Source: Rhodospirillales bacterium BBD 1991-14 (GTDB lineage: Bacteria; Pseudomonadota; Alphaproteobacteria; Kiloniellales; Kiloniellaceae). From it: a DNA stretch of 64,000 nucleotides. Where the stretch lies: contig LYSY01000007.1 in the NCBI GenBank assembly GCA_001657395.1, forward strand, positions 1-64,000, in the 5' to 3' direction. The position numbers were made by a program, and so were the translations under genes. Shown one piece after another: positions 32,777-59,365 of this stretch; the first letter of the stretch is position 1; each line of letters starts with the position of its first letter. A model generated the notes under the pieces. That model had not been told where the DNA came from. It made no database searches and saw only the letters and a program-made list of their open reading frames with translations.

Positions 32777-33373
32777 CTACTGCAAGTGCATCTGACCCGC
32801 GGCGGCGGGGCTCTTTCCCGTCAAAAAGCGCCCGAACACAGCGTCCAGAGAGAGGGCGCCGGCGCCACGCACAACGAGATAAACCAGGACGAAGGCCCAG
32901 AGCGCCCGTTGGTCGAGGATGGCCGCGCTCGGCAGGCGGTCGAACCAGGTACCGATGGTGGCCGCGTCGACGCCGTGAAAGGCGATATCCACATAAGATT
33001 GCACGACGATGAAGCCGATCATGCCGAGGGCGGCAAGCCGCGTGAAAAGCCCCAGCACAATCAGCACCGGAAGGACGAACTCGGCGTAGGTGCCGGCAAA
33101 GACAATGAGGTCGTAGGGAAAGAAGGGCACCTGGGAGGCATCGTAGCCGTAGGCCTCCACCACCGAGGGCAGGATCTGGAAGTAGGCGTTGTCGCCGATG
33201 CTGAAAAACCCGAGGACACCCTCGCCCACCTTTGTGGCGGCGGAATGCAGATAGTAGACCGCGAGCACGGCTGCAAAAACCAGGCGCGCAGACAGGCCCA
33301 GGAACCAGCCGTCCAGCTTCGCCTCCACCGCACCGAAGATCCGGCCATGAACTGCTGTCAGTCGGGTCATCAT
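32777..33373 (-). CDS. DoxX-family membrane protein of bufferin operon (BufD-like)
   Basis: Predicted 198-residue DoxX-like membrane protein with four hydrophobic segments (GLSARLVFAAVLAVYYLHSAATKVGEG; FAGTYAEFVLPVLIVLGLFTRLAALGMIGFIVVQSYVDIAFHG; DQRALWAFVLVYLVVRGAGALSLDAVF). The AEFVLPVLIVLGLFTRLAA block is the DoxX signature. It is the last gene of a four- or five-gene operon and overlaps the preceding gene by four bases (ATGA). In bufferin operons the DoxX protein is the membrane component; its exact role is not established. Confidence 0.85.
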   Translation of the reverse strand: MMTRLTAVHGRIFGAVEAKLDGWFLGLSARLVFAAVLAVYYLHSAATKVGEGVLGFFSIGDNAYFQILPSVVEAYGYDASQVPFFPYDLIVFAGTYAEFVLPVLIVLGLFTRLAALGMIGFIVVQSYVDIAFHGVDAATIGTWFDRLPSAAILDQRALWAFVLVYLVVRGAGALSLDAVFGRFLTGKSPAAAGQMHLQ

Positions 33374-34191
33374 CTCTCGTTCATCCTCGCTGGAGTGTCT
33401 GGCGCATCAGGGCCCGAAGGCAGGAGCGCGGTCACGGCGCCGATCTCGAAAAGGCCCTGCAGGTGGATGGCAAGGTCGAACGCCGGGTCGCGCTCGACGG
33501 CCCGCTCCGCGGCCGCGCCCAACGTTGCGCCTTCCATCAGGTCGGCGATGAAGTCATGGCCGCCAGCCGGAAGCAGGCGGACTTCCACCTTCAGGGCCGG
33601 TCGAACGACCGCAGCCTCCTGGCCGCTCTTCATGTCGATATCAGTCTCAACAGCCGCCTCGCCACTCGCCGCCCAGAGCGAGACGACGGGCCAGCGCGAG
33701 CGGATGAGATGGAGGGAGGGGTGCAGCGCGAAGCGCAGGCTGCCGAGCTCGGCCGGCGGCACCGCCGAAAGGCGGTCGATCTCCAGGGCTGCGGCGTCGC
33801 CGGCGTGATAGGCGTAGAGTTGCGCCCACTCCAGCCGTGCCACGTCCCCCAGGTAAGGCACGCCCGCAGCCGGGGGGAAGTCCTCGAGGAAGTCCCCGAA
33901 GCTGCGGCCGTACAGCAGCAGTACGGGCGACCGTGGCGGTTCCTCGGCGATGTAGGCCCTGGCCGTCGCCTTGAAGAAATCCGCGCCGACCAGCCGACGG
34001 ACCACCGGAAAGGCGGCCTCGAGCGCTTCGATGAGGCTGACCGCCACGTTGTTGCGGTAGACGTCGAAGCCGCGGACAGCGGGCCCTTCGGCCCTCACAG
34101 CAATTGGTGCCGGCACCGGTTGCGCGGCATCGCGCAGCGCGGCGGAGAACGCCTGCTGCAGAACGGCGAGCGAGTCAGCTTGCGGCGACAT
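33370..34191 (-). CDS. DUF2063 partner protein (BufC-like)
   Basis: Predicted 273-residue protein. The N-terminal DUF2063 domain, VLQQAFSAALRDAAQPVP, FDVYRNNVAVSLIEALEAAFPVVRRLVGADFFKATARAYI and GRSFGDFLEDFPPAAGVPYLGDVARLEWAQLYAYHA, is the conserved signature of the partner that presents the precursor to the MNIO enzyme. A C-terminal beta-rich domain follows. Its start overlaps the 3' end of the bufB-like gene by 17 bases, so translation is coupled. Function is inferred from family and operon. Confidence 0.88.
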   Translation of the reverse strand: MSPQADSLAVLQQAFSAALRDAAQPVPAPIAVRAEGPAVRGFDVYRNNVAVSLIEALEAAFPVVRRLVGADFFKATARAYIAEEPPRSPVLLLYGRSFGDFLEDFPPAAGVPYLGDVARLEWAQLYAYHAGDAAALEIDRLSAVPPAELGSLRFALHPSLHLIRSRWPVVSLWAASGEAAVETDIDMKSGQEAAVVRPALKVEVRLLPAGGHDFIADLMEGATLGAAAERAVERDPAFDLAIHLQGLFEIGAVTALLPSGPDAPDTPARMNER

Positions 34192-35077
34192 GGGCTCTGC
34201 GGCGCTTCTGCAGCGGCGGCACCCGGCCGGAGATCTTGCGGACCTCGAGCAGCTGCTCGGCGGCCCGGGCCTCGGAATGAAGCGTCTCCCAGTCGGGCAG
34301 GTCGTTGTCCCACTCGATGAGGGTGGGCTTGGCACCGCCGCGGGCAAGGCTGCGGTCGTAGAGCCGCCAGACGGCGTCATCCACCGCCCGGTCGTGGGCA
34401 TCGATCAGCAGTGTGTTGCCCTGGCCGTCGTCTTCGCGGGCGTGCCCGCCGAGGTGGATCTCACCCACATGCTCCAGGGGAAAGGCGTCGATGTAGGCCT
34501 CCGGGGCGGTCCCCTGGTTGGTGGCGGAGACCATGACGTTGTTCACATCCAGCAGCAGGCCGCAGCCGCTGCGCTTCACCACCGCCTTCAGGAAATCGAC
34601 CTCGCTCATGGTGCTTTCCCTGAAGGTGACGTAGGTGGAGGGGTTCTCCAGCAGAACGCGGTGACCCACCGCATCCTGCATGCGCTCCAGGTGATCACTC
34701 ACCCGCACCACCGTCTCGTCGGTGTAGGGCAGCGGCAGCAGATCGTTGAAGTAGATGTCGTTGTGCGTCGACCAGGCGAGGTGTTCGCTCACCAGGCCGG
34801 GCTCGTAGCGCCCGGCCAGATCCCTGAAGCGTGCCAGATGCGCTTCGTCCAGGGGCGCCGCCCCGCCGATGGACAGCCCGACGCCGTGCAGCGAAAGCGG
34901 GTAGTCGCGGCGGATGCGCTCCAGGTAGTGATGCGGCGGCCCGCCGGCGCCCATGTAGTTCTCGGCATGAACCTCGAGCCAGCCGAGGTCCGGCCGGCCG
35001 TCAAGAACAGCCTCGTAGTGCTGGGCCTTCAGGCCAACACCCGCGCGGGCCGGAATTGTCGAGGAACGCGCCATCAC
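34175..35077 (-). CDS. DUF692 multinuclear iron oxygenase (BufB-like)
   Basis: Predicted 300-residue TIM-barrel enzyme of the DUF692/MNIO family, which includes methanobactin MbnB and BufB. Likely metal ligands are visible in order: SLHGVGLSIGG (His), SEHLAWS (Glu, His), LLENPSTYV (Glu), LLDVNNVMVSA (Asp, Asn), GEIHLGGHARE (two His), LIDAHDRAV (Asp, His) and LIEWDNDLP (Glu). BufB enzymes convert cysteines of BufA peptides to thiooxazole-type groups that bind copper. The gene lies 150 bp after the precursor gene, with hairpins in between, and overlaps the bufC-like gene. Confidence 0.92.
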   Translation of the reverse strand: MMARSSTIPARAGVGLKAQHYEAVLDGRPDLGWLEVHAENYMGAGGPPHHYLERIRRDYPLSLHGVGLSIGGAAPLDEAHLARFRDLAGRYEPGLVSEHLAWSTHNDIYFNDLLPLPYTDETVVRVSDHLERMQDAVGHRVLLENPSTYVTFRESTMSEVDFLKAVVKRSGCGLLLDVNNVMVSATNQGTAPEAYIDAFPLEHVGEIHLGGHAREDDGQGNTLLIDAHDRAVDDAVWRLYDRSLARGGAKPTLIEWDNDLPDWETLHSEARAAEQLLEVRKISGRVPPLQKRRRAHVAAS

Positions 35078-35195
35078 CAGTCACAGCATCTGTCAGGATT
35101 GAACAGGTTCAAGGTTGAGAGAAAAGAGGCGAACGCCGGTCCGGTCATCGCTGCTGCTTTGCCCGGACCGGCGCTCCCCTTCAAACCGCCCCGTC

Positions 35196-35237
35196 CAAGG
35201 ACGAGCCGGCGGTCCTTGAGGCCGGCGTCAGGCCGGC
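35196..35237 (-). promoter_or_regulatory. Two stacked hairpins at the end of the bufA-like gene
   Basis: GCCGGC (35221-35226) pairs with GCCGGC (35232-35237) around the bufA stop codon, and CAAGGAC (35196-35202) pairs with GTCCTTG (35212-35218) just after it. Neither is followed by a T-tract. Such structures could protect or partly end the precursor mRNA, giving more peptide than enzyme. Confidence 0.45.
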
Positions 35238-35557
35238 AGGTCGCGGTCAATAGCCTCCAGCGAGCCCTTGCGGTCACCCGGAAGCTCGAAGTCCGCCGTC
35301 GTTTCCTCGACGCCGTACTTCAGGCAGTCACCAGCCGGAACCAAGGTCCAGGCATTGCCCTGATAGTCCACGGTCGAGGTGCCGGCGCAGGTCGTGCCGG
35401 GGCCCGCAGCGCAGTCGTTCTGTCCGGCCAGAGAGATCCCGTAGCACTTTTCCTTTGCCTGGGCGCTGGCCGGCGTCACCTGCGCGGTTGCCGAAACCGC
35501 CAGAGCCACGGCACCGGCGATCATCGCCGCTGATACAACTTTCCCTTTTTCAGCCAT
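35228..35557 (-). CDS. DUF2282 bufferin precursor peptide (BufA-like)
   Basis: Predicted 109-residue precursor. A signal-like N-terminus ([25 protein letters not shown], cleavage likely near residue 33) is followed by a core with four cysteines at 38, 49, 57 and 78: [34 protein letters not shown], then [10 protein letters not shown]. This is the DUF2282 pattern of BufA1-type bufferins, RiPPs exported to the periplasm and linked to copper tolerance. In characterised bufferins the central cysteines are the modified ones, here Cys49 and Cys57 by position. An acidic tail ([26 protein letters not shown]) is longer than I would expect. Confidence 0.9.
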
Positions 35558-35666
35558 AGACTGATGTCTCCTCTTGATGAACGTTCCTCTCCGATCCCCG
35601 ATCTGCGGAAGCCCCGCTGGCAGAGCTTACAACAGATCCGAAACGCGGTCCGGTGTGCGCCGAAGG

Positions 35667-36209
35667 CTATCCTTCAATGGGGGCCGGACCCTCGTAGGTT
35701 CCGTCATTGTCATTGATGGCCTTCCAGCTCTTGGTTGAAGCGGGAAGGGGTTCCTTCTTCGACCAGATGCCGTCGGCCTTCTCGAGGTTACCGGGAATGT
35801 CGCCCTCCCAGAACCCGACCACCGTCGGCGTGATGTTCAAATAGAGCTTGCCGTCCACAATGCGCCAGAGGTTGGGGTTGGCGGGAACCTTGCCGCCCTG
35901 GGCCAGGCCATAGGCACAGTGACCGTCGTACTGGGGGGCGTACTTCGCCGGGTCGGCGACGAACTTGTCGCGGTTCGCCTCGTTCGAAAACGCCCAGGTG
36001 GCGCCGTTGTACTCGGCGGTGATGCCCGCCTTGCCCCGCACCGCCCGGGGCTGCGCAGAGCCGACGGGGTTCTGCTTCAGGTCGAAATAGGCCACCGCGT
36101 CATAGCCGCTGATCGCGTAGCCGGTTTCGTCAACGTACTGCTCGCCGGCCTGGGCCGCGCCAACGGTCATCACCGACAGGGCCGATGCCAGTAAAAGCTT
36201 GCGCATCAT
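35667..36209 (-). CDS. Exported YHS-domain protein
   Basis: Predicted 180-residue periplasmic protein: signal peptide MMRKLLLASALSVMTVGAAQAGEQ, then the YHS-type domain TGYAISGYDAVAYFDLKQNPVGSAQPRA, ITAEYNGATWAFSNEANRDKFVADPAKYAPQYDGHCAYGLAQGGKVPANPNLWRIVDGKLYLN. The HCAYG motif holds its single Cys. YHS domains often accompany metal handling. It is 109 bp upstream of the bufA-like gene on the same strand, so it is either the first gene of that operon or a co-regulated neighbour; a tie to copper is inference. Confidence 0.85.
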   Translation of the reverse strand: MMRKLLLASALSVMTVGAAQAGEQYVDETGYAISGYDAVAYFDLKQNPVGSAQPRAVRGKAGITAEYNGATWAFSNEANRDKFVADPAKYAPQYDGHCAYGLAQGGKVPANPNLWRIVDGKLYLNITPTVVGFWEGDIPGNLEKADGIWSKKEPLPASTKSWKAINDNDGTYEGPAPIEG

Positions 36210-36307
36210 GGGGGAGAACCTCGCATCTCCTGTTGAAGGGACAGGCGGGTGCCTGATGGCCTAGAAATATTGACCAACAGCCCCTGCGATCAATTCACGA
36301 CACTACA

Positions 36308-37015
36308 CTAAGATGTGACGAGCCCCTGATCGGAGGACCCCTGATCGGCGGGCCCCTCATCGGCAGGCCCGGAACCGGAAGAACCGGCGTCGGAGGACCC
36401 GGAGGCGGCGCGCCTTGCCTTGGCTTCCTTCAGCAGGCGTTCCAGGGCACGGTCGCGCAGGCCCAGCGCCTGGAGGTGGTGGACGGTGTTCTCGAGGTAC
36501 TCCATGCAGGGCCCGCGGGCGCCGTGGCCCTGCAGGATGAGGCCCACCATGTCGTCGTGGCTGAGCCCGCCGGCGTACTGGCGGTGGGCGCGGTCGACGA
36601 CGAAGGTGATCGCAGACACGCTGCCCTGATCGGTCTTGGCGGCCCGCCAGGACGGATGATAGACGCCGGTGATCATCTCCCGCGCATAGAGGTAGTCCAG
36701 CACCTCCTCGCCCTCGCCCGCAGGGACCCGGAACACCAGCCCGCGGCAGGACCCGCCGCGGTCAAGCCCCAGCACCAGCCCCGGGACCTGTGGCGTACCG
36801 CGGTAGCGGTGGGAGAAGACGCAGAAGCTGCGGTGGAAGCCGTTCAGGCGGGCGATGCGCACCTCGACATGGGGAAAGCCGGGGTGCCACATGAGCGAGC
36901 CGTAGCCGAAAACCCAGAAATCCTGACCATCCGGGAGGTCGAGACGGCGGGCGGCCAGTTCCTCGGGCGTGAGGTTGTCGGGGTCGTCAAACTCCGGCCA
37001 CCGGCTTTCCGTCAT
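36308..37015 (-). CDS. ChaC-family gamma-glutamylcyclotransferase
   Basis: Predicted 235-residue enzyme that cleaves glutathione to 5-oxoproline and Cys-Gly. The substrate loop FWVFGYGSLMWHPGF, then FHRSFCVFSHRYRGTPQVPGLVLGLDRGGSCRGLVFRV and DYLYAREMITGVYHP (with the catalytic Glu in AREM), are diagnostic of ChaC. The last 30 residues are a low-complexity Gly/Ser/Asp/Pro tail from short DNA repeats. The start MTESRWPEFDD lies before a tandem-repeat promoter region shared with the divergent DUF2125 gene. Confidence 0.88.
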   Translation of the reverse strand: MTESRWPEFDDPDNLTPEELAARRLDLPDGQDFWVFGYGSLMWHPGFPHVEVRIARLNGFHRSFCVFSHRYRGTPQVPGLVLGLDRGGSCRGLVFRVPAGEGEEVLDYLYAREMITGVYHPSWRAAKTDQGSVSAITFVVDRAHRQYAGGLSHDDMVGLILQGHGARGPCMEYLENTVHHLQALGLRDRALERLLKEAKARRAASGSSDAGSSGSGPADEGPADQGSSDQGLVTS

Positions 37016-37137: not shown

Positions 37138-37233
37138 GGTCCCTGGAATGGGCCCCTGGCCTGGAATGGGTCCCTGGCCTGGAATGGGTCCCTGGCCTGG
37201 AATGGGTCCCTGGCCTGGAATGGGTCCCTGGAA
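37138..37233. repeat. 18-bp tandem repeat in a divergent promoter region
   Basis: Four full copies of TGGAATGGGTCCCTGGCC (37144-37215, the first with one change) plus a partial fifth. The array fills part of the 324-bp gap between the chaC and DUF2125 start codons (37016-37339), so changes in copy number would alter promoter spacing. Nothing else is recognised in the gap. Confidence 0.88.
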
Positions 37234-59291: not shown

Positions 59292-59365
59292 CCTGACTGA
59301 AAGCCAGTCTGACTGAAAGCCAGTCTGACTGAAAGCCAGTCTGACTGAAAGCCTGTCTGACTGAG
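59292..59365. repeat. 16-bp tandem repeat, four copies plus partial
   Basis: TCTGACTGAAAGCCAG in four near-identical copies with a partial fifth. The period is not a multiple of three, so frames read through it are artefacts. Confidence 0.88.

Follow-up and report, generated by a model that had tools for sequence, protein, structure and literature searches.

The window analysed here comprises 64,000 nt of contig LYSY01000007.1 from Rhodospirillales bacterium BBD 1991-14. Its minus strand carries five genes, which the list of open reading frames (ORFs) places in the transcription order YHS, bufA, bufB, bufC, and doxX. The last four form a Buf1 (bufferin-type) operon, and the gene ahead of them, encoding a YHS protein, is the main subject of this report. 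The host is a Pelagibius-like alphaproteobacterium. The closest named record to the window YHS is a Pelagibius metagenome-assembled genome (MAG) with 98% identity in YHS, and the NCBI taxonomy places Pelagibius in Alphaproteobacteria, Rhodospirillales, Rhodovibrionaceae.

Genes and proteins of the operon

The first gene (35667..36209, minus strand, like all genes of the operon) encodes a YHS protein of 180 aa that matches the YHS (seleno)protein family NF041384 with 128.4 bits (cut-off 70) and the YHS domain PF04945 at a borderline 30.6 bits (cut-off 30.3). The second, bufA (35228..35557), encodes a Buf1 (DUF2282) bufferin precursor of 109 aa with four Cys (PF10048, 83 bits; cut-off 22.4), which stays below the cut-off of the BufA2 family NF050166 (23.4 bits versus 60). 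The MNIO maturase of 300 aa is encoded by bufB (34175..35077), which has a GTG start; it is recognized by NF050167 MNIO_BufB (384 bits; cut-off 310), by PF05114 MbnB_TglH_ChrH (347 bits; cut-off 25), and by a match to PDB entry 3bww (E 4e-42). Both remaining products, the DUF2063 partner protein BufC of 273 aa (33370..34191; PF09836, 95 bits; cut-off 27.2) and a DoxX family membrane protein of 198 aa (32777..33373; PF07681, 28 bits; cut-off 23.6), score above their Pfam cut-offs. The window thus holds the set by which a Buf1 cluster is recognized, namely a four-Cys DUF2282 precursor, an adjoining BufB-type MNIO, and DUF2063 and DoxX proteins, and the family models together with the gene order bear out the bufferin-type operon, with its precursor, enzyme, and two partners, that an earlier note on this DNA had proposed. 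That note had also described the genes as contiguous with overlapping ends, which is correct only at the two ends of bufC, where 17 nt are shared with bufB and 4 nt with doxX; gaps of 109 nt and 150 nt separate YHS from bufA and bufA from bufB, respectively. Profile searches of the source genome found one MNIO gene, one DUF2282 gene, and four YHS_seleno genes, one of them at the buf locus and three elsewhere.

The four Cys of the window BufA follow the Buf1 pattern and are invariant across the 84 BufA sequences compared. Its N-terminus is hydrophobic and ends in an Ala-rich segment, and judged by eye it is signal-peptide-like. The BufB alignment consists of 89 rows, three of which are the window's own protein. 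In it H64, H99, E144, D177, and H208 are conserved in 89/89 rows and D226, H228, and E255 in 88/88; conservation reaches 87–89 of 89 rows or 88/88 for the His, Asp, Glu, and Asn residues that vary least. These residues are candidate iron ligands; the earlier note had credited the enzyme with its full set of candidate metal ligands.

The YHS protein, correctly placed by the earlier note directly upstream on the same strand, is probably exported, as its N-terminus (..AQA/GEQY) looks signal-peptide-like by eye. It carries a 9-residue insert and belongs to a domain type of 360–363 nt. Its Cys98 lies in a G-H-C motif and is kept in 114/119 aligned rows, and 104/119 rows have a single Cys; these 119 rows were not screened for a selenocysteine codon, and Cys was read in 114 of them. 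The G-H-C motif corresponds to the GxU position of selenoprotein members of the family, and the window residue at this position is an ordinary Cys, not selenocysteine. The His before Cys98 was considered as a link to bufferin and rejected, because linked YHS proteins of other types do not have it. An AlphaFold model built from the 119 diverse rows gave a confident domain (pLDDT 87, pTM 0.80), and one built from 12 close sequences was poor (pLDDT 50).

Recurrence of the YHS gene beside bufA

The linkage of YHS to bufA was followed in class, order, phylum, and named-genome samples, which overlap in part and are not independent. The class sample consists of 289 genomes, with 118 DUF2282 loci in 100 of them, and its count drew on 132 BufB rows, after those below ~190 bits had been set aside, and on the 141 YHS rows that exceed the family cut-off; in the phylum sample, YHS rows scoring less than this cut-off were likewise omitted. 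In the class sample, bufB is directly downstream in 101 of the 118 loci. In nine, YHS immediately precedes bufA in the same orientation (209–375 nt from domain to domain), and the next nearest YHS stands 3.9 kb away. A rough chance expectation, based on 2 YHS in 4.5 Mb, is ~0.01 such pairs among 118 loci. The proportion is larger in the order sample of 61 genomes, where 16 of 37 DUF2282 loci, in 15 genomes, have YHS upstream on the same strand. All 15 YHS matches of the window insert type in this sample are linked, and the one remaining linked YHS matches only in part and lies close to the end of its contig; among six insert-type matches in the class sample, three are linked. Outside the class, the phylum sample has 4 of 43 loci linked, again upstream on the same strand and all in one family code. 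When counted up to the point where the BufA profile begins to match, the YHS-bufA gaps are 39–376 nt, with 42 of 45 within 40–220 nt.

Linked loci were also read gene by gene. Seven loci from three further family codes of the class (f42, f124, and f83) have the five genes in order, and the order's loci as read show the same arrangement, although in one (L122) the contig stops short. Beyond the class, one locus (L118) has all five genes, a second (L116) has them with a short DoxX hit, and a third (L117) has no BufC hit. With few exceptions, the linked loci examined in this way have bufB after bufA. Two loci, L059 (4006-5368) and L115 (3506-5307), have YHS, bufA, and doxX without bufB and bufC; in their genomes, bufB lies elsewhere (G051) or in a second YHS locus (G637).

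A scan of named genomes with window-type YHS proteins covered the best 80 of 352 loci, which were chosen by YHS likeness and give no frequency. In 31 of the 80, bufA is beside YHS, and 29 of these have the canonical order, two of them ending at the contig before doxX. The other two are a Roseovarius MAG (L232), where YHS and bufA are head-to-head, and a Rhodospirillaceae MAG (L210), where they are convergent. The latter has bufB in several open pieces beside YHS (L210:6708-7730), which indicates either a decayed operon or poor assembly. Linked loci include Pelagibius, Oceanibacterium, Denitrobaculum, Geminicoccaceae, Tepidamorphaceae, and Rhodobiaceae, and seven of the 31 are Granulosicoccaceae (Gammaproteobacteria). 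The operon is experimentally accessible, because named non-MAG records carry it: Pelagibius litoralis, P. marinus, Oceanibacterium hippocampi, and Denitrobaculum tricleocarpae. A locus titled Mesoflavibacter (L183, CP051228.1) also has a YHS-buf operon; its YHS groups with alphaproteobacterial ones, and the label may be wrong. By title, 40 of the 49 unlinked loci are Thalassospira or Rhodobacteraceae/Roseobacter-type and four are Granulosicoccaceae. A rhodanese-like gene follows the unlinked YHS in 10 of these 49 loci, in Rhodobacteraceae-type genomes (e.g., L213:5530-5979; three were Pfam-checked), which hints at thiol or sulfur chemistry.

In Thalassobaculum sp. OXR-137, a mobilizable plasmid (L366, NZ_CP139716.1:1274-9777) carries the genes as YHS-DUF2282-DUF692-DUF2063-DoxX-sigma-NrsF, with an annotated YHS-bufA gap of 33 nt. 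Given this cassette, the buf-YHS system may travel. The seven genes adjoin a toxin-antitoxin pair.

The YHS linkage is a minority trait that recurs at the same place and in the same orientation in other families and in another class. The linkage to buf loci elsewhere, on which the earlier note had staked its suggestion of a new system member, is therefore present, and this recurrence supports YHS as an operon member, though as a minority feature.

Two quick trees, with support from the Shimodaira–Hasegawa-like approximate likelihood ratio test (SH-aLRT) only and with short unlinked loci called unlinked from the surveys, describe how the linkage is distributed. At least 14 switches between linked and unlinked are needed on the tree of 174 YHS domains and at least 10 on that of 88 BufB proteins, and on each tree starred branches force five of them. 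The linked YHS belong to two regions of the YHS tree, one with 38 linked among 91 rows and the other with 10 among 29. These trees cannot tell gain from loss. The head-to-head locus L232 groups with unlinked relatives in both trees and differs in orientation, which suggests that its linkage was a separate event.

Upstream motif, hairpins, and BufA tail

Downstream of YHS, 30 of the 31 linked named loci continue with bufA and bufB. On the upstream side the neighboring gene lacks such conservation, the largest cluster comprising 4 loci among the 31 by a crude choice of ORFs, and as read from these loci, gene-order conservation stops at yhs. The upstream ChaC gene was rejected as a sixth operon gene, as it is not conserved. 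A promoter-like motif found by alignment, GTCAC-N15-CGTGAATTGA (36290..36319, minus strand), lies 80 nt upstream of the YHS ATG and overlaps the last codons of the ChaC gene. Its consensus, GTMAC-N15-CGTGAWTTGA, is conserved upstream of YHS in Pelagibius and near relatives, and by its appearance it may be an extracytoplasmic function (ECF)-type promoter. Each of the seven Pelagibius genomes with DUF2282, out of eight, has one exact copy, the eighth has none, and the reversed pattern has none in all eight; five of the counted genomes had themselves supplied the pattern, which takes weight from the count and leaves the single copy, always at this place, as its informative part. A weighted search finds the motif also in L179, L183, and L077, and more weakly in some others. 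A scan with the sigma-70 consensus gave no promoter. The source genome has no match to NrsF (PF06532); among the 61 order genomes, three show such a match, two of them over the cut-off. Membership in a classic sigma-F/NrsF regulon was dropped for this genome, given the missing NrsF and a motif unlike the GTAACC-N16-CGAA given in the relevant part of an earlier study (PMC3511200). One Pelagibius genome (L262, G338) is both the only one of the eight without a DUF2282 match and the only one with an NrsF match.

Between bufA and bufB, a strong GC-rich hairpin with a T-rich tail (35134..35173, minus strand) lies in a region with z -3.27, for which 0 of 200 shuffles were as stable; it is possibly a partial terminator or an mRNA stabiliser. 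Relatives have strong hairpins of unlike sequence in this gap, including many operons without YHS. Its specificity to YHS loci was rejected in favor of a general tendency, with z < -2 in 26/33 loci with YHS and in 10/21 without (p 0.055).

The segment after Cys4 of the window BufA is long, with 19–20 residues ahead of GSL. This long tail is present in 29 of 46 YHS-linked BufA, comprising 28 of the 35 with a YHS of the DGHC motif and one more in which a contig end truncates the YHS. The tail is missing from all 38 BufA without YHS and, in a later comparison, from all 102 further BufA without YHS. The Thalassobaculum plasmid locus, read after this comparison, also has the long tail. The association supports an interaction with YHS and does not demonstrate it, because descent from one cassette could explain it.

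Apart from the operon, the window has five near-perfect copies of an 18-bp repeat at 37142-37231, ahead of a DUF2125 gene and inside the long ChaC frame. A tandem array at 59293-59364 has 4.5 copies of the 16-bp unit CTGACTGAAAGCCAGT.

Role of the YHS protein and comparison with known systems

From its sequence context, YHS is very probably a recurrent member of some Buf1 operons, because the linkage recurs in place and orientation, the gene upstream is unconserved, and a motif lies upstream of YHS. Support for operon membership is good; the biochemical role is one that we infer. The preferred reading, with a probability of about 0.6, is that YHS is a recurrent accessory gene of the operon, co-expressed and exported with bufferin, and that its product acts with the finished peptide in copper or thiol handling. 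One transcript would start at the motif upstream of yhs, with yhs as the first cistron, and the hairpin after bufA may hold the mRNA of YHS and BufA above that of the enzymes. In the cytoplasm, BufB and BufC would convert the Cys of BufA into copper-binding groups. Buf1 clusters as a kind are marked by thiooxazoles formed from Cys and by copper binding and protection. Sec signals would export both YHS and BufA, and in the periplasm the single-Cys YHS would assist mature bufferin as its copper or thiol-redox partner, alongside DoxX in the membrane. An action on the product side is indicated by L059 and L115, because these keep YHS, bufA, and doxX without bufB and bufC.

Several observations weigh against this reading. 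No bufA is present in the fetched stretch of 49 of the best 80 of 352 named-genome loci, 109 of the 118 class bufA loci have no YHS, and the three further YHS genes of the source genome, like the other three of six insert-type matches in the class sample, stand away from bufA. YHS is not required for bufferin operons, because most bufA loci are without it. The long BufA tail is absent from 10 of 10 BufA linked to other YHS types and from 7 of 35 loci with the DGHC type, and it may be shared by descent from one cassette only. The upstream motif is not present in all linked lineages, and the plasmid is without it by eye; a related motif precedes unlinked Thalassospira YHS genes, and the motif may thus be a feature of YHS genes and not of the operon. 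In addition, the YHS-bufA gap folds with z < -2 in 11 of 43 loci, a smaller share than for the bufA-bufB gap. As for the protein, a Foldseek search with the good model found no solved structure at E 0.001 or better, the tightest short fit being a 28-column stretch of toluene monooxygenase at rank 16 (rmsd 0.9), and a metal site beyond the one Cys is not evident.

A rival reading takes YHS to be a general periplasmic stress protein that is simply co-regulated with bufferin, sharing its promoter and not acting on bufferin or copper. YHS genes are frequent and mostly located elsewhere (141 places in 87 of the 289 class genomes, nine at bufA), and the motif ahead of the lone Thalassospira genes and the rhodanese-like neighbor of the unlinked ones point in the same direction. 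On the other hand, neighbor, side, and orientation are the same in several lineages, YHS stays beside bufA even where bufB and bufC are missing, and the long tail of BufA is seen only in YHS loci, so that co-regulation alone is possible, though rather unlikely. Far less probable is a part in making the peptide, such as metal delivery or keeping the Cys reduced for BufB. The presence of bufB farther downstream in nearly all linked loci as read would fit it, but the YHS N-terminus is signal-peptide-like, while MNIO modification is taken to precede export in the consulted part of a survey of MNIO clusters (PMC12452194), and the two loci without bufBC also speak against it.

That the adjacency arose by chance, or was simply inherited from one ancestor and has no function, likewise deserves very little credence. 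Many linked loci are close relatives (in the genus and order samples), the SH-aLRT-only trees do not separate gain from loss, and among 54 further class bufA loci, from the phylum sample, none is YHS-linked, the nearest YHS standing 45 kb away; this last count lowers the linked share in the class and weighs against the preferred reading as well. On the contrary, nine pairs were seen where ~0.01 are expected, at least five state changes are forced by starred branches on each tree, and the head-to-head and convergent loci keep the adjacency in other orientations. Within the preferred reading of a partner to the finished peptide, a narrower version is doubtful, namely that YHS is the dedicated periplasmic partner of one bufferin subtype, docking on the long BufA tail and passing Cu(I) or thiol reducing power between bufferin and DoxX. 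If true, such docking and relay would make bufferin part of a redox or copper relay, not merely a passive buffer.

The closest known systems include the Buf1 operons of Caulobacter (CC3254-CC3257 and CC2905-CC2907; gig): the parts of the two sources consulted (PMC3511200, PMC12452194) describe a four-Cys DUF2282 precursor with a signal peptide, an MNIO, and a DUF2063 protein in the same order. DoxX occurs in one of the two Caulobacter sets according to the former, and the window has it. In contrast to the known Buf1 operons, the window has a YHS_seleno protein ahead of bufA and its genome has no NrsF match, and the window BufA has a longer tail than the compared unlinked ones. HvfABCX/oxazolin operons share the MNIO, DUF2063, and DoxX-like partners; their HvfC and HvfX models match the window weakly and below their NCBIfam cut-offs (BufC against NF050145 HvfC, 50.8 bits versus 142), and the window precursor is a DUF2282 protein. 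The window YHS resembles members of NF041384 and has G-H-C where selenoproteins of the family have GxU; it differs in being a Cys form inside a bufferin operon. The family is listed among selenoproteins with a GxU motif in the consulted part of a 2026 review (PMC13188914), and the passages seen of two selenoprotein reviews do not mention a bufferin-operon context.

The main text of the MNIO cluster survey (PMC12452194) does not contain the term 'YHS', and its rule for unrelated genes, in the part consulted, required a distance of at most 10 bp from a known one. Such a survey would usually miss YHS, because the YHS-bufA gaps (39–376 nt, and 33 nt on the plasmid) exceed 10 bp. A search of the open-access literature gave no paper joining the YHS domain with DUF692, DUF2282, DoxX, or bufferin. 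The fifth gene offers a handle on the fate of bufferin after export and a possible role for the YHS (seleno)protein family, for which none was met. Compared with these systems, the window has a Buf1 operon to which a fifth component, recurrent in a minority of lineages and probably exported, is added, and this YHS protein may be a partner of the peptide that has been overlooked.

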